DNA from: a virus
Direction: 5' to 3' (one strand)
IMG/VR virus record: IMGVR_UViG_3300025117_000090
Location: 1 to 49,866 of that record
DNA: 49,866 nt
Under the pieces are notes generated by a model. That model was given only the letters and a program-made list of their open reading frames with translations, had not been told where the DNA came from and did no database searches. The position numbers and the translations under genes were made by a program. Shown in pieces: positions 1 to 49,866 of the stretch (the stretch's first letter is position 1; the number at the start of each line of letters is the position of its first letter).

Positions 1-1548
1 GTTCATGCGGCCAGTCAGGGTGCCGTCTACCCTCCACGTTGCATGAACCCGCCCGTCCTCCTGTACGGGTAGGTTGTCGATGTAGGTGGAGGTAATCTTC
101 CCGGCCTTGCGGTACTTGAGGACTATGCCCGCAAGAAGCTCCGCCTTGGGGTTCCCGCAGATGGAGTACTGCTCAAGGGTGTACGCATCCAGGCTCCGCT
201 CCCCCGTAAGCTTGCTGTACCAGAGGGGGTTAAGCCCCATATCATCAAAGAAGAGCTTCTTTAGGCTATCATGGGCCCCGACCGCGCCCAACTTGTACTT
301 GTCCCCGACATGATAATGAAACTCATTACGGGCGGCCTCCATTTTCTTGGTGAGCACAACTCCGTGCCACTGGCGGGTGAGGTCATCAACGGAGACTCCC
401 CACCGCCGCATCCTGATGGCGACCTGGCCTAAGTCCATGACGCCCTGGAATAGTTCCATTCCTTTGTGCGTCGCGGCCAGTAGGCCTTCTTGACTCTTCT
501 GGACCGCCGCGGTGCCCTGATTATCCTCCGCATTGTACTTGCAATAGGCTTCAAGACTTCCGCCCCAGCCGTGGTCGTGCTGGAAGTGAGTCTTCCACCG
601 GGGGAGGTCAGTACTGAGTACGGCTACATGACCTAAGTCTTTGGGTTGTTGGTTTCCGTAGATGCTCGCCGCAAGCATGGTATCCCAATAGTACTCTCCC
701 ATACGAAGTCCGTTGTTTTCCAGTAGAATAATGTCATGCTGCCCGTTGTGGTAAACACATGGGAGGTGTAGTAGACATTGCTGGTAGAGGTCCATTTGCT
801 CCTTGGTGGGTGGCCAGGGAAATGATGCCCCCCGTTTTGTATTTCCGCATCCGACACAGATTAGCTCCTCAGTCTTGGGGTTGTTCTCCACGTCCACCCC
901 GATGGGAAGGCCATCTTCTAGGATTCCCCGGAGGGTGGATACAATGTGCTCACTCTTGTAGTATTTCAGCCCCCGAAAGGAGCGGGGCGTCCACCTGGAG
1001 CTGCCTTTTCTGGCTAGCTTTAGGCCCCGCTCGAAAAGGTGGGCCGCGGCAGGAATCATCCCCGGGGAGCGCAGGCAGAATGCTGGGTGGTATGTGGGCA
1101 TAAGTGGGTGGGTCTTGTAGTGCAGTAGCTCCCCGACCCAATCCCCTACGACCACGACACCCCTCGCATTGCGGGGCCCATCAAGGGCAGCTAAGGCCCG
1201 ACCTCCTAGGGTAATGATGGGGGCATCCCCGCTCGGTATCTCCGCCTGCAATCTACCCTTGCAGCACTCTATAGCTTGGGCCCACTCATTAGGCTTCATA
1301 GGCCTATTGGGCTTGCAGAGCATTGCATTGGTAATAAAGCAGGAGGAGCGGTCCACCTTGCCCCGTCTAAGCCACTTGTCCAGCAGGATACCGGACTGCC
1401 CCACGAAGGGGGACCCGAGGAGTACTTCATTCGTCCCCGGGCCTTCCCCTACGATGATGACTTGTGGGTCTTGAACGAACTCAGAATGTACTTGAACCGG
1501 AGCGTAGCCCGCACATGGGATGGGACAGTCTTTACAATTGGGCGTCAT
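1..1548 (-). CDS. UDG-DNA polymerase I fusion, N-terminal two-thirds (split by window ends)
   Basis: This holds residues 1-514 of a protein of about 771 aa that continues at 49740-48967. Residues 1-160 look like a family 4 uracil-DNA glycosylase: CxxC at 5-8, GEGPG at 34-38, PFVG near 47-50, further Cys at 78 and 95/96 in the usual 4Fe-4S arrangement, and an HPAF catalytic loop at 154-157. Residues 216-342 are a DnaQ-type 3'-5' exonuclease: D219/E221, N268/D272 and Y338/D342. The remainder is the polymerase thumb/finger lead-in, ending with the K-S-T-Y and T-G-R-W-S segments typical of Pol A. The ATG at 1548 overlaps the stop of the upstream gene (ATGA) and is the first start after an in-frame stop at 1591-1593. 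The role is replicative polymerase with proofreading; the fused domain may scan for uracil. Bases 1-6 encode two wrong residues. Confidence 0.93.
   Translation of the reverse strand, partial: MTPNCKDCPIPCAGYAPVQVHSEFVQDPQVIIVGEGPGTNEVLLGSPFVGQSGILLDKWLRRGKVDRSSCFITNAMLCKPNRPMKPNEWAQAIECCKGRLQAEIPSGDAPIITLGGRALAALDGPRNARGVVVVGDWVGELLHYKTHPLMPTYHPAFCLRSPGMIPAAAHLFERGLKLARKGSSRWTPRSFRGLKYYKSEHIVSTLRGILEDGLPIGVDVENNPKTEELICVGCGNTKRGASFPWPPTKEQMDLYQQCLLHLPCVYHNGQHDIILLENNGLRMGEYYWDTMLAASIYGNQQPKDLGHVAVLSTDLPRWKTHFQHDHGWGGSLEAYCKYNAEDNQGTAAVQKSQEGLLAATHKGMELFQGVMDLGQVAIRMRRWGVSVDDLTRQWHGVVLTKKMEAARNEFHYHVGDKYKLGAVGAHDSLKKLFFDDMGLNPLWYSKLTGERSLDAYTLEQYSICGNPKAELLAGIVLKYRKAGKITSTYIDNLPVQEDGRVHATWRVDGTLTGRMN
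7..132. repeat. Terminal direct repeat, left copy (circular assembly overlap)
   Basis: These 126 bases are identical to 49741-49866. Joining the copies restores one uninterrupted polymerase reading frame, so this is most simply the overlap left when a circular or circularly permuted molecule was assembled, not a biological terminal repeat. The unit length is then about 49,734 bp. Bases 1-6 do not match the sequence before the right copy and are not true flanking sequence. Confidence 0.93.
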
Positions 1549-2804: not shown

Positions 2805-3653
2805 CTATTCTTCCTTCGCACGTCGAATTATGTCTTGAAGGTCGCACGGTTCCTCCTTGTTAAGCCCCTTCAGGCGACATTTCCACTCAAACCCCTCGGT
2901 TCCGTAGGGATAGATTGCGTAGGTACGATTGTGGCCCGGACCCTTAGCCTTAACGGGCCAAATGTTGCTGAAGTTCCGCCGGTAGTACTTGGCCCCCTGC
3001 CCCGTGATATCCATCTTAATCTCTCCGACTTCAAGCCCTGCGGCCGTAAGCTGGGCATCATGCTCCGCTACCGCGTCCTCGTTCTTGGTAGTACGAGCGG
3101 CGGTCACGGCCGTGCCGTGGGCAATAACCACCACATGGCATGGAAGCTCGCGGAGGCGATTGAAGAACTTAACGTGCTTCGCAAGGAGGCTAGTCCACAG
3201 GTCCTGGCCCTCCAGGGTCTGGGAAAGGTGTGTTTTGATGACAGCATCATAAGACGAAATGCTATCCACTGTTATTGCCTTGAGTGTCCCGGCCTGGACC
3301 TGGGGTATGATTACCTCCTTGAACACCACTTCGATGGCCTTATCTAGAGACCCCCCGGGGACGGTGCTCAGGTCCACGTGAGGTACTTCTAGCTTGTGAC
3401 CGTACGCCGAGAGTACTCCCTCGCTATCGAATTGGAGTACCAAGAGGTCACTCAGGGTGGTCCATACTTTGGCCTCCAGGGTAAACTTCTCACTGATTGA
3501 AAAGGAGGCAATGGTCTTCCCCTCCCCCTGCCGCCCGATGAGAATTGAGCGGTGGCCGGTAAAGGCCTCTGCCCTACTGCTCTTCACGGTAGTGAAGGCT
3601 TTGAGACGGTCCGCGACATCTGACACTGCAACTTCTGAGTTAGGTTTGACCAT
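2805..3653 (-). CDS. Sak4-like RecA-fold ATPase (recombination)
   Basis: This 282-aa P-loop ATPase has a Walker A motif G-R-Q-G-E-G-K-T at residues 40-47, a Walker B strand ending in D130 (AITVDSIS), and a later strand ending in A-H-G-T near residue 170 that fits a sensor. Size and motif spacing match the Sak4/AAA_24 family, single-domain RecA-like proteins used by phages for single-strand annealing and strand exchange with an SSB. I chose the ATG at 3653 because it overlaps the preceding stop as TAATG; an in-frame start at 3683 would overlap that gene by 31 bp. The Cas4-like nuclease upstream could provide the resected ends. Confidence 0.82.
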   Translation of the reverse strand: MVKPNSEVAVSDVADRLKAFTTVKSSRAEAFTGHRSILIGRQGEGKTIASFSISEKFTLEAKVWTTLSDLLVLQFDSEGVLSAYGHKLEVPHVDLSTVPGGSLDKAIEVVFKEVIIPQVQAGTLKAITVDSISSYDAVIKTHLSQTLEGQDLWTSLLAKHVKFFNRLRELPCHVVVIAHGTAVTAARTTKNEDAVAEHDAQLTAAGLEVGEIKMDITGQGAKYYRRNFSNIWPVKAKGPGHNRTYAIYPYGTEGFEWKCRLKGLNKEEPCDLQDIIRRAKEE

Positions 3654-4585
3654 TATTCCAGGGCCTTGGCTTTCTGCAAGCATGTACGCTCGCCGTCGAT
3701 GTAGTAGACACAGCTCCCAAAATCCTCGCAGGATGAGAGGTTCGGGAAGTTGGTATGCGAAAGGGCCTCCGCCGAAAGGAAGAAGCTGCCCAGCATCTGC
3801 AAGTCATCATCCGTGGGGGAATGTTGCAGAAGGGGCCAGAAGGATTTGGGCTTGCGCTGTCCTTCGTCCCGGAGGCGCATGGGCTTATGCCCCACAATTC
3901 CCATATAAATCATGCCCTTACACGGGGCGTCGGGGTTGCAGAAGTTGTAGACCGCCTGGTAAGTGAGGCCTTGCACTTTGCCCCCGTATGCGTTGAGGAG
4001 GTTGTATGGCTTCTGGTCCTTAGTCTTCCAGTCCACGAGGTAGACCCCCGCTTCCATGCCTTCAAGGACGGGAAGGGTCTTAACGATGCGGGCCACGTCC
4101 TCATTAGTCACCTCGATAATCAGGTCAATCGTCACGGGCAGGATGTAGGGGGGAGCCTCAATGAGGGCATCCGGAATCTCTAGGGCCTTCAGGTCCTGGT
4201 CCCTGGGGAGCTTCACTTCCGCCCCTAGGACCTTACCCCAAAAGTCCTGCGGGAAGTTGTCTCGGTACCCCGTGAAGAAACGAATCCCCTCATCAAAGGC
4301 GGACTTAGCATCGGGGCAGGGAATCTCCAGGGCCTGCTCGGGGCGGAGCCAGCCAGTATGGTACAGCTCTACCAGCTTATGAAAAATACTTCCGCGGTCT
4401 GCCTTCTCCATCCCGCCCCAGTTGTGCTCTTGAGGTAGGCCATTAGCCTCCGCCCGCTTTCTAGCAAGGTCCCGCAGGGCTCTCCGGAGAGGACAAGAGG
4501 CAGCATCCATATGCCAAGACACACCCTTACCCGAGCCTCCACTTTCAAAGTTGATTGAGATTACTTGGGTTGGTTCATCGGTCAT
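3653..4585 (-). CDS. Cas4/PD-(D/E)XK-like exonuclease
   Basis: This 310-aa protein has the RecB/Cas4 nuclease pattern: an early Cys (C31), H69, a G-A-E-V-K-L strand near 121-126, D154 (VTIDLI), the catalytic D185-W-K187 core, and the Q-G-L-T-Y-Q helix at 205-210. Three Cys near the C-terminus, together with C31, suggest a 4Fe-4S cluster as in Cas4 and AddB. No CRISPR array or cas1 lies nearby, so this is a phage recombination exonuclease, probably paired with the Sak4-like ATPase downstream. The ATG at 4585 follows the previous stop by one base; the upstream in-frame start at 4618 is less likely. Confidence 0.82.
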   Translation of the reverse strand: MTDEPTQVISINFESGGSGKGVSWHMDAASCPLRRALRDLARKRAEANGLPQEHNWGGMEKADRGSIFHKLVELYHTGWLRPEQALEIPCPDAKSAFDEGIRFFTGYRDNFPQDFWGKVLGAEVKLPRDQDLKALEIPDALIEAPPYILPVTIDLIIEVTNEDVARIVKTLPVLEGMEAGVYLVDWKTKDQKPYNLLNAYGGKVQGLTYQAVYNFCNPDAPCKGMIYMGIVGHKPMRLRDEGQRKPKSFWPLLQHSPTDDDLQMLGSFFLSAEALSHTNFPNLSSCEDFGSCVYYIDGERTCLQKAKALE

Positions 4586-4586
4586 C

Positions 4587-4889
4587 TTAGTTCCGCTCCT
4601 TGTCTTCAAGTTGAGCACTGGCCATCATGTCGTGGCCTTGCTTTAATGCAAGCCATCTCTGGTAGGCCTCATCCTGCGAGGCGGTTAGCCCCTTGACGAT
4701 GAAGGCGTCCAGAATTTCCAGCGCATCCCGCACCCCCTCCGAGTATGCGGGCTCACGACACCTATCCCCCACCTCGGCTAGGCCCTTAATCCCCAGGGAG
4801 GGGAGCTTGAACATGGCCGTGATGTGGTCACAGGTTAGTTTATAGAACTCCCAGGGGGACATCTCTCCGATTGGTTTGCTAGTGCTCAT
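4587..4889 (-). CDS. Hypothetical protein
   Basis: This 100-residue, mostly helical soluble protein has no recognised motif. The ATG at 4889 overlaps the preceding stop as ATGA, which favours it over the in-frame start at 4904. It lies between the helicase/zinc-finger pair and the Cas4-like nuclease, so it may belong to the recombination module, but this rests only on position. Confidence 0.7.
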   Translation of the reverse strand: MSTSKPIGEMSPWEFYKLTCDHITAMFKLPSLGIKGLAEVGDRCREPAYSEGVRDALEILDAFIVKGLTASQDEAYQRWLALKQGHDMMASAQLEDKERN

Positions 4890-5149
4890 CTTGATGCCTC
4901 CCACCCAGACTTAACTACGCAGGCACAAACCATCGGACATCGGACGCCGCCCTTGGTAATGAGCGTACCCGGGCTTCCAGTCCCATGGCAGTCCTTACAA
5001 CTTGGGTCCTGCATAAGGCAGGGGTCCATTGAGAATATCGCTCTATAGGTGTGCTGGAACAAAGTCCTGTGGTTGTTGTCCACTAATCGAGGGGTCTGTG
5101 CAGGCCCCTTCTTCTTGCCCCTAGTATTCTTCTGCTCTTTAGAATTCAT
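4886..5149 (-). CDS. Small DnaJ-type zinc-finger protein
   Basis: This 87-aa protein has a Lys-rich N-terminus and a C-terminal cysteine cluster, C-K-D-C-H-G-T-G followed about 16 residues later by C-P-M-V-C-A-C. The CxxCxGxG pattern is that of DnaJ-type zinc fingers. No J domain is present. The start overlaps the helicase stop by 11 bp. It may be an adaptor for the helicase, but no partner is evident from sequence. Confidence 0.7.
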   Translation of the reverse strand: MNSKEQKNTRGKKKGPAQTPRLVDNNHRTLFQHTYRAIFSMDPCLMQDPSCKDCHGTGSPGTLITKGGVRCPMVCACVVKSGWEASR

Positions 5150-6533
5150 CGCTCACCCAGCTTTCTGCTGCTTGCATGATTGAATCAAGAAACTCCGCTT
5201 CGCCTCCTAGTGCACTGGATATAGCATTATCAACAGCATCACCACCAATAGCCATGTCAATAGCACCAAGCTTAGTAACTGTACGATCGACGACCACTTC
5301 ATCTATTGTCCCTTTCACCGACATGATAGTTAGTCGGCCTGCCTCTGTTGAACTAAAACGATTGAACCGCCCAAACGCCTGCATAAGGACCTCCGGCTTG
5401 TCCGTCAGCTCTAAGCACAGTACATGAGGGCAATACGTCATGTCAATACCTATTCCGATGGAATCCATGGTCGCGACCGTGATTGACCGTGGCTCCGCGG
5501 CGGCCTTAGCCAGGAGGTCGTTGCGCTGGTCCGGGCTCAGGTCCCCCGTGATGACAAATGTGGGAATTGTGCTGGCAAACTTAGCCCCCACCTGGTAGGC
5601 CAGCTCCCTATGAAATGTGAGTATGGCCAGCCTACTTCCCTCGACTAATGTGTCTGCCACCCACTCAGTAGCGGAGGGCAGCTTGGCAAACCCGGCGCGG
5701 CCCAGTGCCCCGCATAGCTCCTTGGGAGGGGTGGACATCTCCATCCCGTCCGTATTGTCCACATCCACGCTCAAGTGAACCACATCAAATGCCGGTAGTA
5801 AATGGGCCACCTCCTGGCGGGTGGTCCTGCTCATCATATGGCCCATACGCTCCCGCAGCTCATCCATGTAGAGCGGGTTTGCACCCGAGTAGTGAACCCC
5901 GCTCAGGGCGTACTCGCTGGGAATCTCCTGGGCGTAGCGCTGCTTGCATCTTCGGCTTATTCCATACTTCGGGTCTGTCCCCCCGAAGCGGCCGGGCCAA
6001 AGCAATTCTGCAATGCAGCACACATCAAGTGGTTCATTAGCAATTGGCGTAGCTGTAAGCCCGAGCACGACAGCTCTTGGATTGGATGCGATAAGTCCCG
6101 AAGCTGCGATACTGTTCTTGGTGGAAGGATTCCGTCCCCGATGAATTTCATCGAGCACAATTGCGTCCCATCTATCTTGACATACGTCCCCCACCAGATT
6201 CCAGCTAACGATTTGGGTATCATTTCCATGTGCCGCCTCCAGTAGTGCACGCTTCTTCTTGGTTAGTTGCTTTCGATTAGACCCGGCAAAGATACTCCCC
6301 GCGGCGGGGCGCTCGGGCCACCACTTGTTGAACTCCTTCCGCCAGTGATTCCGCACTATCGCGGGCGTAACGACTAGGATGCGGGGGGACTTCTTCTCCC
6401 TTAAGGCGGTAAGAGCCTGGCCGGTCTTACCAATTCCCGTGCTAGAGGTTAGAAGCCAGCGTCCCCCGCGGGCCTCATGGACCTTATCGGCATGAAAGCG
6501 GGTTACCGCGTCCCTGGAAGTAAAGCCTACCAT
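5139..6533 (-). CDS. SF2 (SNF2/DEAD-like) DNA helicase
   Basis: This 464-aa protein shows the helicase motifs in order: motif I S-T-G-I-G-K-T ending at residue 37, motif Ia (LVVTPAIV), motif II D-E-I-H at 127-130, motif III T-A-T-P at 159-162, and motif VI Q-A-F-G-R-F-N-R in the C-terminal lobe. It resembles short phage SNF2/UvsW-type helicases that remodel forks and recombination intermediates. No N-terminal specificity domain is present, but a tiny W-x-P/K-x-W protein of HARP-like type is encoded three genes upstream and may supply it. Confidence 0.88.
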   Translation of the reverse strand: MVGFTSRDAVTRFHADKVHEARGGRWLLTSSTGIGKTGQALTALREKKSPRILVVTPAIVRNHWRKEFNKWWPERPAAGSIFAGSNRKQLTKKKRALLEAAHGNDTQIVSWNLVGDVCQDRWDAIVLDEIHRGRNPSTKNSIAASGLIASNPRAVVLGLTATPIANEPLDVCCIAELLWPGRFGGTDPKYGISRRCKQRYAQEIPSEYALSGVHYSGANPLYMDELRERMGHMMSRTTRQEVAHLLPAFDVVHLSVDVDNTDGMEMSTPPKELCGALGRAGFAKLPSATEWVADTLVEGSRLAILTFHRELAYQVGAKFASTIPTFVITGDLSPDQRNDLLAKAAAEPRSITVATMDSIGIGIDMTYCPHVLCLELTDKPEVLMQAFGRFNRFSSTEAGRLTIMSVKGTIDEVVVDRTVTKLGAIDMAIGGDAVDNAISSALGGEAEFLDSIMQAAESWVSDEF

Positions 6534-7565: not shown

Positions 7566-8603
7566 CTAGCTCCTCTTCACCTTGTTCTTGCCTGCCCTAA
7601 GTAAGCCCCCAGATGCGAGTAGTAAGTCCCGAGCCACGACCGCCACATCCTGGCTCGTACCCCAGGTCGCGGCAAGGTCGCGGACTGAGTACTGTGCATC
7701 GTCCATGAGCAGTCCCAGCTTCTCATTCGCGAACTCTTCGTCCACCATGTCGGGGGACTCCTCCTCCATACGCAGCGTAGCCTTCATATCACACTCGGAG
7801 TCTATGGTCCAGTAGAGCTTGAAGAACTTTTCCATGGCATCCGACTGCCGGACAGTCAGGTCCAAGTAGTCTGAGTGCTCATCATCCGGCTCACGTATGC
7901 AAAGATGAACATCGTAAAACCCCGATAATGCCGAGGTCCCTCGAATCTCCGTGTCGATGTCGGGCTTGATTCCTCCCTTAATCTCGGAGGGCTTCCGCAA
8001 GTGGTGAAGGTAAGCAACGGTGCCACCCTTCATCGCGGCGCGGAGGTCCTTGATTCGCCGCATTACCTCGCCAATCTGCTGGACCGAATTCTCGTCCGCC
8101 CGATTACTCTGTGCAAGGGTATCGATAATCATGAATTTGATACCGGCCTCCTGAACGAACTTTGTAACCTCCTCCATGTGGCTCACGTCGTCTAGTAGGA
8201 AATTAAGCCGGTGGGCATAATAAATGGGGCACCTAAATTGGGTATTCGCAAATGGTTTGAGCAGCATCTCCCACCGATTCGCGGTAAGCTTGGCTGGCCC
8301 CTCCAACTCCAGGACCAGGACAGGCACCGCGCAGGTGGGCATTAAAGCTGGTACTATTGACTTGCCACTAGCAATGGACAAAGCAATCTCGAATGCAAAC
8401 CAGGTCTTCTTAGCTTTCTTGGCGCGGCCGCTGACCAGTACTGCCGCATCGAATGGGATAATCCCGGGGATAATCCAGGGCGGGTCAGTTTGGGCGTTCG
8501 CCCAACCAATCCAGTCCAACAACTGCCGCGGGGGCCAGGGCTGGTCATCAGTCCCCCAACCTTGAGGCAGCTTTGTAAGAGGTAGGTCCCCGCGCTTCAC
8601 CAT
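7566..8603 (-). CDS. RepA-like replicative ATPase/helicase (AAA_25 type)
   Basis: This 345-aa RecA-fold ATPase has an N-terminal region (residues 1-45), a P-loop strand V-S-G-R-A-K-K-A-K-K-T-W at 57-68, Walker B I-I-D161-T-L, a strand ending L-H-H-L-R-K-P of the hexameric-helicase type, and a C-terminal winged-helix-like segment. The P-loop lacks the second glycine of GxxxxGK[ST] and resembles the P-K-S-x-K-T-W variant found in RepA/AAA_25 phage proteins. It is the best candidate for replicative helicase or initiator, as no DnaB-type helicase or separate primase is visible. GGGAG precedes the ATG at 8603. Confidence 0.78.
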   Translation of the reverse strand: MVKRGDLPLTKLPQGWGTDDQPWPPRQLLDWIGWANAQTDPPWIIPGIIPFDAAVLVSGRAKKAKKTWFAFEIALSIASGKSIVPALMPTCAVPVLVLELEGPAKLTANRWEMLLKPFANTQFRCPIYYAHRLNFLLDDVSHMEEVTKFVQEAGIKFMIIDTLAQSNRADENSVQQIGEVMRRIKDLRAAMKGGTVAYLHHLRKPSEIKGGIKPDIDTEIRGTSALSGFYDVHLCIREPDDEHSDYLDLTVRQSDAMEKFFKLYWTIDSECDMKATLRMEEESPDMVDEEFANEKLGLLMDDAQYSVRDLAATWGTSQDVAVVARDLLLASGGLLRAGKNKVKRS

Positions 8604-27010: not shown

Positions 27011-28264
27011 ATGGCAGTTGGTGTAACTTCGAGTACCAGTGGACTAGCCTTCGTGAACTACATGAAGGACATTTCGGAGTCCTTGAATCAACAGTCCAAG
27101 GGGCGCTTGCTTTGCAAGAAGACCAAGCCTTGGACCGGGCAGTACCTTGAGTGGCGTCTTCATGTCGCCCGTACTAGCGGAATTGGCTTTGCCGAAGACG
27201 GCGGGCAGTTCTCCATCCCCGGGAAGCAAAGCTATCAAAGCCCGAAGGCCTACCGCCGAGCGGTGCAGGGCAAGATCCAGCTTACGGACATGGCGATGGC
27301 AGCCATCAAGAATGACAAGAACAGCGCGAAGGGTGTTGTTAATTCTGAGATGGAAGGCCTCATGCGGGACATCCTCAAGTTCGAGAACTGGTACTTCTTC
27401 CGCGACGGCTCGGGGAATGTCGCTACCGTCAAGGCCAACTATGATGTTGGTGACACTGACCTGGTTGAAGTCGACGACTCACGCGGCATGTGGGAAGGGT
27501 CCGAGTTGGACCTCTACACAGCGGGCGGCGTGTTCCGTTCGACCCTGCCCTCGGTTAGCTCTATTGCTTCACTAGCGGTAGACGATTATGCTCAGGTGGA
27601 CCTGTCCGGCGCGGGCAATGCCGACATGATTGCCACTGATGTTCTCAAGTGGAAGGGCGCTACCAGCTCCAATGCGGTCAGCGGCTTGATGAGCTTGATT
27701 GATGACACCGCGGGTACTTTCCAGAACGTATCGGTGACCAGCTATCCCAAGTATGCTTCACTGGTTATGGGCAACAGTGGGACGGCACGGGAGCTTACCC
27801 CCTCGCTGTTCCGCAGCGTGTTGGCTGGTATTCAACAGAAGTGCGGTAATGAGTCCCCCGCCAGTGGCCTTACCTGTTTGACCAGCCTCTGGGATGCCGT
27901 CTCGGTTGAAGAGATGTACGAGGGCGAGCTTCGCCTCTCCCCCAAGGACAAGGTTGTTGGCCTCGCAGTCAAATCCTTCCAGACCATGCTTGGTAAGGTT
28001 GATGTCGTGACGGATGCGGACGCCCCCATGGGTACCATGTTCTTCGCAGATTTCAGCCAGATTTACCGCGGCGTCCAGAAGCCCCTTGAATGGCGGCGCG
28101 ACGGCAATAGCGGTGACGGTGGAAGTGGCGCAATCTTCAAGCGCAATGACGAGTCGGGTGTCTACACCGCGACCGTGCTTGAAATTTATGAGCACTTCAT
28201 CAAAGAAAGACACAGCTCGGGCCGCTTGGATGACCTGTCCTACAGCCGCTCGACCGTGTACTAG
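27011..28264 (+). CDS. Major capsid protein
   Basis: This 417-aa protein directly follows the scaffold gene. The order helical N-arm (M-K-D-I-S-E-S-L), E-loop-like segment (S-G-I-G-F-A-E-D-G-G, Q-S-Y-Q-S-P-K-A-Y-R-R), spine helix (M-E-G-L-M-R-D-I-L-K-F-E), and beta-rich A/P domains fits an HK97-fold coat protein. No protease gene is adjacent. GGAG precedes the ATG; a large hairpin follows the stop. Confidence 0.88.
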   Translation: MAVGVTSSTSGLAFVNYMKDISESLNQQSKGRLLCKKTKPWTGQYLEWRLHVARTSGIGFAEDGGQFSIPGKQSYQSPKAYRRAVQGKIQLTDMAMAAIKNDKNSAKGVVNSEMEGLMRDILKFENWYFFRDGSGNVATVKANYDVGDTDLVEVDDSRGMWEGSELDLYTAGGVFRSTLPSVSSIASLAVDDYAQVDLSGAGNADMIATDVLKWKGATSSNAVSGLMSLIDDTAGTFQNVSVTSYPKYASLVMGNSGTARELTPSLFRSVLAGIQQKCGNESPASGLTCLTSLWDAVSVEEMYEGELRLSPKDKVVGLAVKSFQTMLGKVDVVTDADAPMGTMFFADFSQIYRGVQKPLEWRRDGNSGDGGSGAIFKRNDESGVYTATVLEIYEHFIKERHSSGRLDDLSYSRSTVY

Positions 28265-48635: not shown

Positions 48636-48970
48636 AGTGCCACCCCCGGTTTGATGTCTCTACAAACAAGCCCCTCCATACCCCACTCGCCCTCACACGA
48701 CTTACGTGCCATGGTCACGTAGCACTCCTTGTCCCCGAGGGGCCCGAAGTACACACATTGAGCCGCCCCGGTCTCGTAATCTCTGGCACAGAACTTCTGC
48801 TTGAAGCCCTCCGGGGAAGGGGCCATGTTGCAGTCTCCCACGGGGGGAAGGGGGACTAGAAGCGGCCGCGGGGCCTCCTGACGGCAGCATCCCAGATTCC
48901 ACATGAGAAGACAAGCAGTTGCGAGTACCAAGCCGAAAAGAATCCGTTCTCTGTTTCCGCTAAACTTCAT
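48632..48970 (-). CDS. Secreted Cys-rich protein
   Basis: This 112-aa protein begins with a basic N-terminus and hydrophobic segment (I-L-F-G-L-V-L-A-T-A-C-L-L-M-W) ending near L-G-C-C, a possible lipobox, followed by a Pro-rich linker and seven further Cys, which could form disulphides in the periplasm. The ATG at 48970 overlaps the polymerase stop (ATGA), preferred to 48997. Possibly involved in exclusion or envelope modification, but nothing proves this. Confidence 0.66.
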   Translation of the reverse strand: MKFSGNRERILFGLVLATACLLMWNLGCCRQEAPRPLLVPLPPVGDCNMAPSPEGFKQKFCARDYETGAAQCVYFGPLGDKECYVTMARKSCEGEWGMEGLVCRDIKPGVAL

Positions 48971-49866
48971 AGCTCCAATCCTTTCAGGTTGTACCAATCA
49001 ATGCCCCATTCAATATCCGCGGGGATGACAATGGGGCCCGTACCGAAATCCACCTCCTGCTCTAGGCACTTCTTCAGCATCCTACCCGCTTCAACCTTAT
49101 CCTCCATCGGCACCTCCAGGTTAATTTCGTCGTGGACCATTGACCAGATACCCCAAGTCTTCCAGTCGACAAGTCTATCCAAAGCCAGGATTGCCCTGTT
49201 CACGATAGTCGCGACCCCCGCCTGCTCGGGGTAGTTGAGGATGACGCTCGGGTCAATTCTTCCATCGGGGAAGTACTCCCTTCTTCCACTAAGTACTTCT
49301 TCAACATAGCAGTTTTCTTGGGCGTCTGCAAGTAGTTTCTTCTGGAAAGACTCGATATCCGGGTGGTCCCGGAAGAACCGCTTGAACATTGTCCGCACAT
49401 CAGCAAGACGAACATTGAACCCGCCCGCCCGCATCTGAGCCCAGCAAGTTTCGGCGGTGCCGCCATAAACTAGGCAATAGATGAATATCTTCGCCATCTT
49501 ACGCATACCCTTGGTCACTGCCGTAATGGGTATGGCAAACATCGTAGAAGCATTCCGGGCGTGAACGTCTTCCCCTTCGGCGAACCACTTCAAGAACAAC
49601 TTGTCCCCCGAAAGGGCGGCCACGGCATATACCTCAGCTTGTGACAAGTCTCCGCTGACGAAGGCCATCCCCGGCCCAGGCACGTACATGTCTCGTAACC
49701 ACTTGGGTTGATTAGTCATATTCGGCATCTGGCATGACCAGCGGCCAGTCAGGGTGCCGTCTACCCTCCACGTTGCATGAACCCGCCCGTCCTCCTGTAC
49801 GGGTAGGTTGTCGATGTAGGTGGAGGTAATCTTCCCGGCCTTGCGGTACTTGAGGACTATGCCCGC
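48967..49866 (-). CDS. DNA polymerase I-type, C-terminal part of the UDG fusion (continues at 1)
   Basis: This completes the 771-aa polymerase begun at 1548; 49741-49866 repeats bases 7-132. Palm and finger motifs are clear: motif A G-D-L-S-Q-A-E with D545, the O-helix R594-K-M-A-K598 followed by Y602 and Y-G, and motif C H-D-E-I-N-L-E-V. Y602 aligns with E. coli Pol I F762 and T7 Y526. The TAG/TAA region ends with K-G-L-E-L at 48967, overlapping the next gene by 4 bp. Confidence 0.94.
   Translation of the reverse strand, partial: AGIVLKYRKAGKITSTYIDNLPVQEDGRVHATWRVDGTLTGRWSCQMPNMTNQPKWLRDMYVPGPGMAFVSGDLSQAEVYAVAALSGDKLFLKWFAEGEDVHARNASTMFAIPITAVTKGMRKMAKIFIYCLVYGGTAETCWAQMRAGGFNVRLADVRTMFKRFFRDHPDIESFQKKLLADAQENCYVEEVLSGRREYFPDGRIDPSVILNYPEQAGVATIVNRAILALDRLVDWKTWGIWSMVHDEINLEVPMEDKVEAGRMLKKCLEQEVDFGTGPIVIPADIEWGIDWYNLKGLEL
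49741..49866. repeat. Terminal direct repeat, right copy
   Basis: This is identical to 7-132. The sequence just before it (49735-49740) continues the polymerase codons correctly (W-S), unlike bases 1-6, so this copy carries the true flank. Confidence 0.93.

Follow-up and report, generated by a model that had tools for sequence, protein, structure and literature searches.

Does a uracil-DNA glycosylase (UDG) fold that is built into a replicative DNA polymerase serve repair, DNA holding, or both? The question is raised by a 49,866-nucleotide stretch of viral DNA (IMG/VR record IMGVR_UViG_3300025117_000090, positions 1 to 49,866; hereafter the window), which encodes a single chain of 771 residues with a family-4 UDG domain (residues 1-183), a DEDD exonuclease, and a family A polymerase core, probably the replicative polymerase of a 49.7-kb tailed phage. 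With a probability of roughly 0.6, we consider this protein to be a phage replicative polymerase that carries a working, tethered family-4 UDG, the domain of which probably also holds DNA in a non-catalytic manner. This reading draws on the architecture, the UDG fold, the conservation of the pocket and cysteines, and the replication-gene neighborhood, and extends from these sequence and model data to a proposed excision of uracil in cis. The protein stands at one end of a natural comparison, in which complete and lost fused UDG sites occur on the same polymerase chassis in many phages, and which makes the above question testable. UDG-PolA fusions were already known and are quite common in phages, and the window protein is a divergent addition to them. 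The new and surprising element is the comparative pattern among 101 fusions, in which the pocket was lost again and again and the domain was kept, and not the window protein alone.

A polymerase gene that spans the contig ends

An open frame of 516 codons spanned positions 1-1548 on the minus strand, ran off the left end of the window, and halted at the window edge just past the TGR motif. The six leftmost bases (GTTCAT) were stray and produced a spurious terminal 'MN' in this frame. Bases 7-132 were identical to bases 49741-49866; therefore, the contig is circular with a unit of 49,734 bp, and the last 42 true residues of the frame reappeared at the start of another open frame, at the opposite end of the window. 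Although IMG/VR lists the record as linear, it is circular, the perfect 126-bp repeat being hidden behind the stray bases. Joining the gene across the circle yielded the full-length protein, and an artefact or chimera at the contig end was excluded because the frame stayed in register across the repeat (Table 1). The ATG at 1548 overlapped the stop codon of the upstream open reading frame (1545-1853), which fits coupled translation.

The Pfam DNA_pol_A profile matched both gene halves (E 9e-11 and 1.6e-50), and the far-end half covered positions 78-380 of the 381 positions of PF00476. The DEDD 3'-5' exonuclease occupied residues about 190-380, with D219, E221, D272, and D342 complete, and exonuclease motifs I-III were all present together with polymerase motifs A, B, and C, as in a family A polymerase with a DEDD exonuclease. 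The original prediction had placed a complete Pol A core within positions 1-1548; the core is indeed complete in the gene, but motifs A, B, and C are located at 48967-49866, outside that interval. An AlphaFold2 model was built for residues 1-516 from an alignment of 40 sequences (mean pLDDT 87), and its exonuclease-polymerase part resembled phage G20c Pol I (Z 21.0). Tyr602 (49477-49479) occupied the position of Taq F667 and Klenow F762. Tyrosine at this position is a trait of T7 polymerase and of F667Y Taq, and is associated with weak discrimination against dideoxynucleotides; by analogy, the window polymerase is predicted to discriminate weakly against dideoxynucleotides and to incorporate them easily. 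A divergent relative (MW202622) likewise had Tyr at the Taq F667 position.

Genes encoding a Sak4-like ATPase, a PD-(D/E)XK nuclease, an SNF2-type helicase, and an AAA_25 ATPase were located upstream of the polymerase on the same strand, and the polymerase-nuclease-Sak4 set was common to the fusion loci of Almagne, Lebethron, Serbin, and Yersinia phage P744. The major capsid protein (27011-28264) was of the SU10/phrog_14242 type and was distantly related (22-24%) to capsids of Arthrobacter and Microbacterium phages. No near DNA match to window bases 1-25000 was found in the public phage collection, and no close relative of the polymerase was found among viral contigs.

Table 1. Positions of the features of the polymerase gene, its neighbors, and the terminal repeat in the window.
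Feature	Position	Strand	Basis or remark
UDG-exonuclease-PolA gene, N-terminal 514 codons	1..1548	-	start ATG at 1548
Same gene, C-terminal part (palm, fingers, stop codon)	48967..49866	-	PF00476 E 1.6e-50; continuous with 1-1548 across contig ends
Terminal direct repeat, copy 1	7..132		126 bp, identical to 49741-49866
Terminal direct repeat, copy 2	49741..49866		identical to 7-132
Family-4 UDG domain, residues 1-183	1000..1548	-	PF03167; PDB sequence matches 1l9g/1vk2/1ui0; AF2 model against 1ui1
Predicted Fe-S cysteines C5, C8 (NCKDC)	1525..1536	-	align with TthUDGa C13, C16
Predicted Fe-S cysteine C78	1315..1317	-	aligns with TthUDGa C84; invariant in fusion alignment
Predicted Fe-S cysteine C96	1261..1263	-	aligns with TthUDGa C100; invariant in fusion alignment
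UDG motif 1 GEGPGTNE, residues 34-41	1426..1449	-	alignment, E35-G36 = TthUDGa E41-G42, E41 = TthUDGa E47; residue roles PMC5387724
F48, uracil-pocket stacking residue (TthUDGa F54)	1405..1407	-	alignment
N74, uracil-reading Asn (TthUDGa N80)	1327..1329	-	alignment
UDG motif 2 YHPAF, catalytic H154 (TthUDGa H155)	1078..1092	-	alignment
Exonuclease motif I, D219-V-E221	886..894	-	invariant, 40 fusions
Exonuclease motif II, N268...D272	733..747	-	invariant, 40 fusions
Exonuclease motif III, Y338...D342	523..537	-	D342 invariant, Y338 90% or more (40 fusions)
Polymerase motif A, GDLSQAE (D545)	49633..49653	-	alignment to Taq/Klenow
Polymerase motif B / O helix, RKMAKIFIYCLVYG; R594/K598/Y602	49462..49503	-	alignment to Taq/Klenow
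Polymerase motif C, MVHDEI (HDE)	49123..49140	-	alignment to Taq/Klenow
Sak4-like AAA recombinase	2805..3683	-	PF13479 E 1.9e-6, phrog_124
PD-(D/E)XK (Cas4-like) nuclease	3653..4618	-	PF12705 E 1.6e-4, phrog_1218
SNF2-type helicase	5139..6533	-	PF00176, phrog_62
AAA_25 ATPase, probable replicative helicase/primase partner	7566..8603	-	PF13481 E 4e-20, phrog_3123/906

Fold and uracil pocket of the N-terminal domain

Pfam PF03167 (UDG) covered residues 25-164 (E 1.9e-19), and in the PDB the N-terminus was closest in sequence to family-4 UDGs from Thermotoga and Thermus (E about 1e-15), with 9qhs_A also in the list. The domain shared 53 of 177 aligned residues with the Thermus thermophilus enzyme (TthUDGa), and residues 1-183 of the model superposed on its structure (1ui1) with a Z of 21.0 and 2.5 A over 172 residues; the resemblance is therefore not due to chance. 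A structure prediction of the N-terminus against family-4 UDG had been posed as the test that could overturn the original prediction of a family-4 Fe-S UDG joined to a DnaQ-type exonuclease and PolA. The modeled fold was UDG-like, and it agreed with PF03167, PF00476, and the residues in upholding that prediction.

The uracil pocket of TthUDGa comprises E41, G42, E47, F54, N80, and H155, whereas N89 helps place the water, and mutations in this pocket cause losses of one to four orders of magnitude (PMC5387724). All six pocket residues had aligned counterparts in the window protein, namely E35, G36, E41, F48, N74, and H154. TthUDGa shares its fold, Fe-S cysteines, motifs 1 and 2, and pocket residues with the window domain, but it is a stand-alone enzyme, and its motif 3 loop is two residues longer; N81 of the window protein aligned with N89 across this deletion and is probably its equivalent. 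The N-terminal region thus combined the family-4 fold with four cysteines, GE(A/G)PG with the thymine-excluding Glu, the pocket Phe and Asn, and HP(A/S). The four cysteines, as in family-4 enzymes, are predicted to be ligands of a 4Fe-4S cluster. Because all of the pocket residues were kept despite the lack of a close relative and a branch length of 1.4 substitutions in the exonuclease-polymerase tree, continued selection on the pocket is likely.

The domain would thus hydrolyze uracil from DNA by the family-4 mechanism, with His154 stabilizing the uracilate and Glu41 excluding thymine. It may act in cis at the polymerase site, so that misincorporated or deaminated uracil would be removed during copying, and the excised sites would later be repaired or recombined. 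Uracil surveillance coupled to synthesis, as originally suggested, is therefore plausible from the sequence, and polymerases that remove uracil by themselves might be sought in the intact class of fusions. On the other hand, if the UDG acted on template that the fork had yet to reach, the resulting AP sites would block synthesis. Alternatively, the domain might only read uracil, with the polymerase stalling before it in the template. Archaeal family B polymerases behave in this manner and are a precedent for a uracil pocket coupled to a polymerase, and the window protein does have an intact pocket attached to one. However, all catalytic residues were present, including H154, and cutting is efficient in family-4 enzymes that have them (PMC5387724), which makes reading without cutting highly improbable compared with a working glycosylase.

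The same single-chain order of UDG, exonuclease, and PolA was found in the DNA polymerase of the Thermus phage phiLo (9QHS, AYJ74010), which, like the window protein, had an intact pocket (GEAPG, E, F, TN, HPS) and four cysteines. It differed in its length (1175 aa, with large extra segments), showed about 17% identity in a structural alignment, and came from an unrelated host and phage. The PDB title of 9QHS is 'phiLo family-A DNA polymerase with modified template', and no paper on this structure was found in the collection of papers searched. The fold was also shared with mycobacterial UdgX (Z about 20). UdgX is defined by a KRRIH loop with a crosslinking His and by a GEQPG motif (PMC10359453); the window protein lacked the KRRIH loop, and its GEGPG motif lacked the Gln, such that UdgX-like self-crosslinking is not expected.

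Intact and degenerate domains among phage fusions

The fusion had been regarded as rare and limited to a few phage groups of the SPO1 type, which the searches contradicted. The window UDG domain alone matched 33 phage records (tblastn), whereas the N-terminal 358 residues of a related fusion matched 419 public phage records, a count that takes in matches via the exonuclease part alone. These 419 included 163 Vibrio and 68 Gordonia phages, as well as SPO1-like, Serratia, Pseudomonas, Streptomyces, and Microbacterium phages, and a fusion structure (9QHS) already exists. A UDG domain, reported to model on 1ui0, has also been described in PaBG-type DNA polymerase I (PMC7412058); the PaBG and 'Lupandier' enzymes are UDG-domain fusions like that of the window, but these phages are jumbo myoviruses. 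SPO1 itself was a misleading comparison. Its gp31 joins a UDG-fold domain at the N-terminus to a family A polymerase, but it contains QENPF, Met for Phe, and Ser for Asn, and has lost the cysteines, whereas the window protein keeps both the pocket and the cysteines.

The window protein, annotated phage fusions, and 80 IMG/VR loci were aligned with TthUDGa, and a pocket was termed intact when E41, F54 (or Tyr), N80, and H155 were all present (TthUDGa numbering, also below). Among the 101 classifiable fusions, in a sample that was seeded from one subfamily, 58 were intact, including the window protein, and 43 were degenerate, including SPO1. Sites outside the definition of the classes differed as well: G44, E47, and N89 were present in 57, 56, and 54 of the 58 intact domains, and in 6, 18, and 11 of the 43 degenerate domains, respectively. 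The two classes therefore represent two coherent states. On a quick LG+G4 tree of the exonuclease-polymerase columns only, in which the window was on a long branch, the pocket state changed 13 times, and at least 10 of these changes were forced by branches with SH-aLRT of 95 or more. Alignment-seeded scans with two earlier alignments recovered no conserved stretch.

All four cysteines were kept in at least 27 of the 43 degenerate domains, a lower bound in that some cysteine losses may reflect start-codon annotation. A degenerate domain that had lost motifs 1 and 2 (L090) still modeled as a family-4 UDG (pLDDT 80, Z 20.5 to 1ui1). Given that the pocket was repeatedly lost among relatives while the fold persisted, the domain may also hold or guide DNA for the polymerase, as a second role that is non-catalytic, and both the retained cysteines and the L090 model argue for such a role. 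Degenerate relatives also show that glycosylase activity is dispensable for such polymerases, and individual phages may retain or abandon it. Seven loci (L021, L025, L041, L086, L090, L093, and L095) had lost motif 1 and/or motif 2 with the four cysteines kept, and are pseudo-UDGs with a probable Fe-S cluster. The start of the Almagne protein was annotated after CxxC, and a similar locus (L043) had all four cysteines.

The domain could even be mainly a DNA-holding module for processivity or positioning, with excision being incidental despite an intact pocket, much as poxvirus D4 acts via A20 on E9. The switches between intact and lost pockets with retention of the fold and often of the Fe-S cysteines, as well as SPO1 gp31 without pocket and cysteines, are consistent with this possibility. 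Vaccinia E9 requires A20/D4 as its processivity factor (PMC5682278). The E9-A20-D4 holoenzyme likewise has a UDG that works within a viral replicative polymerase, but it is an analogy only, with separate subunits, a family B polymerase, and a family 1 UDG. In contrast, the joint conservation of the pocket in 58 of the 101 fusions, including isolated lineages such as the window, would be unexpected if excision never mattered; thus, a mainly holding function is rather unlikely for the window protein, and a working UDG that probably also holds DNA is preferred. Extended to phage UDG-PolA proteins in general, the domain might be a dual-use module, itself essential to the polymerase for holding DNA, with a glycosylase site that was switched on or off many times independently, a proposal that we put forward tentatively, at slightly less than even odds. 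If it is true, the polymerase of window-type phages would remove uracil while copying, whereas close relatives would use the domain as a dead clamp.

Pyrimidine-modification genes and possible split polymerases

The original prediction had also proposed recognition of host versus phage DNA, in which the domain would attack uracil-containing or unmodified DNA and thereby favor phage DNA. Many relatives adjoin pyrimidine-modification genes, and pocket loss was associated with these genes (thymidylate synthase/hydroxymethylase) in the raw counts (Fisher p 0.009). However, the association vanished when relatedness was taken into account, with 0.9 of 9 independent pairs on the tree changing the same way, 0.0 the opposite way, and 8.1 being uninformative, and it is therefore not supported. 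Furthermore, the searches of the window detected no such gene (hydroxymethyl-pyrimidine, thymidylate synthase, hydroxymethylase, dCMP deaminase, or dUTPase). SPO1 makes hydroxymethyl-dUMP, whereas the window had neither the degenerate pocket nor the adjoining dUMP hydroxymethylase of SPO1-type (hydroxymethyluracil) phages. Discrimination between host and phage DNA is thus unsupported and barely credible for this protein.

The fusions of L010 (MW202455), L104, and L105 adjoined conserved genes for thymidylate kinase, NTP pyrophosphatase/dUTPase, 'pyrimidine hmase', thymidylate synthase, and dCMP deaminase, a block that is probably a thymine-modification pathway. In Vibrio phage ABTNL-3 (L101, 5956-9090), the polymerase appeared to be split into a UDG-exonuclease gene and a polymerase gene with a small open reading frame between them, and its UDG part was degenerate. 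The fusion in MW202554 (L008, 1727-4364) was annotated as an adjacent UDG-exonuclease (419 aa) and polymerase (408 aa), which is a possible second split.
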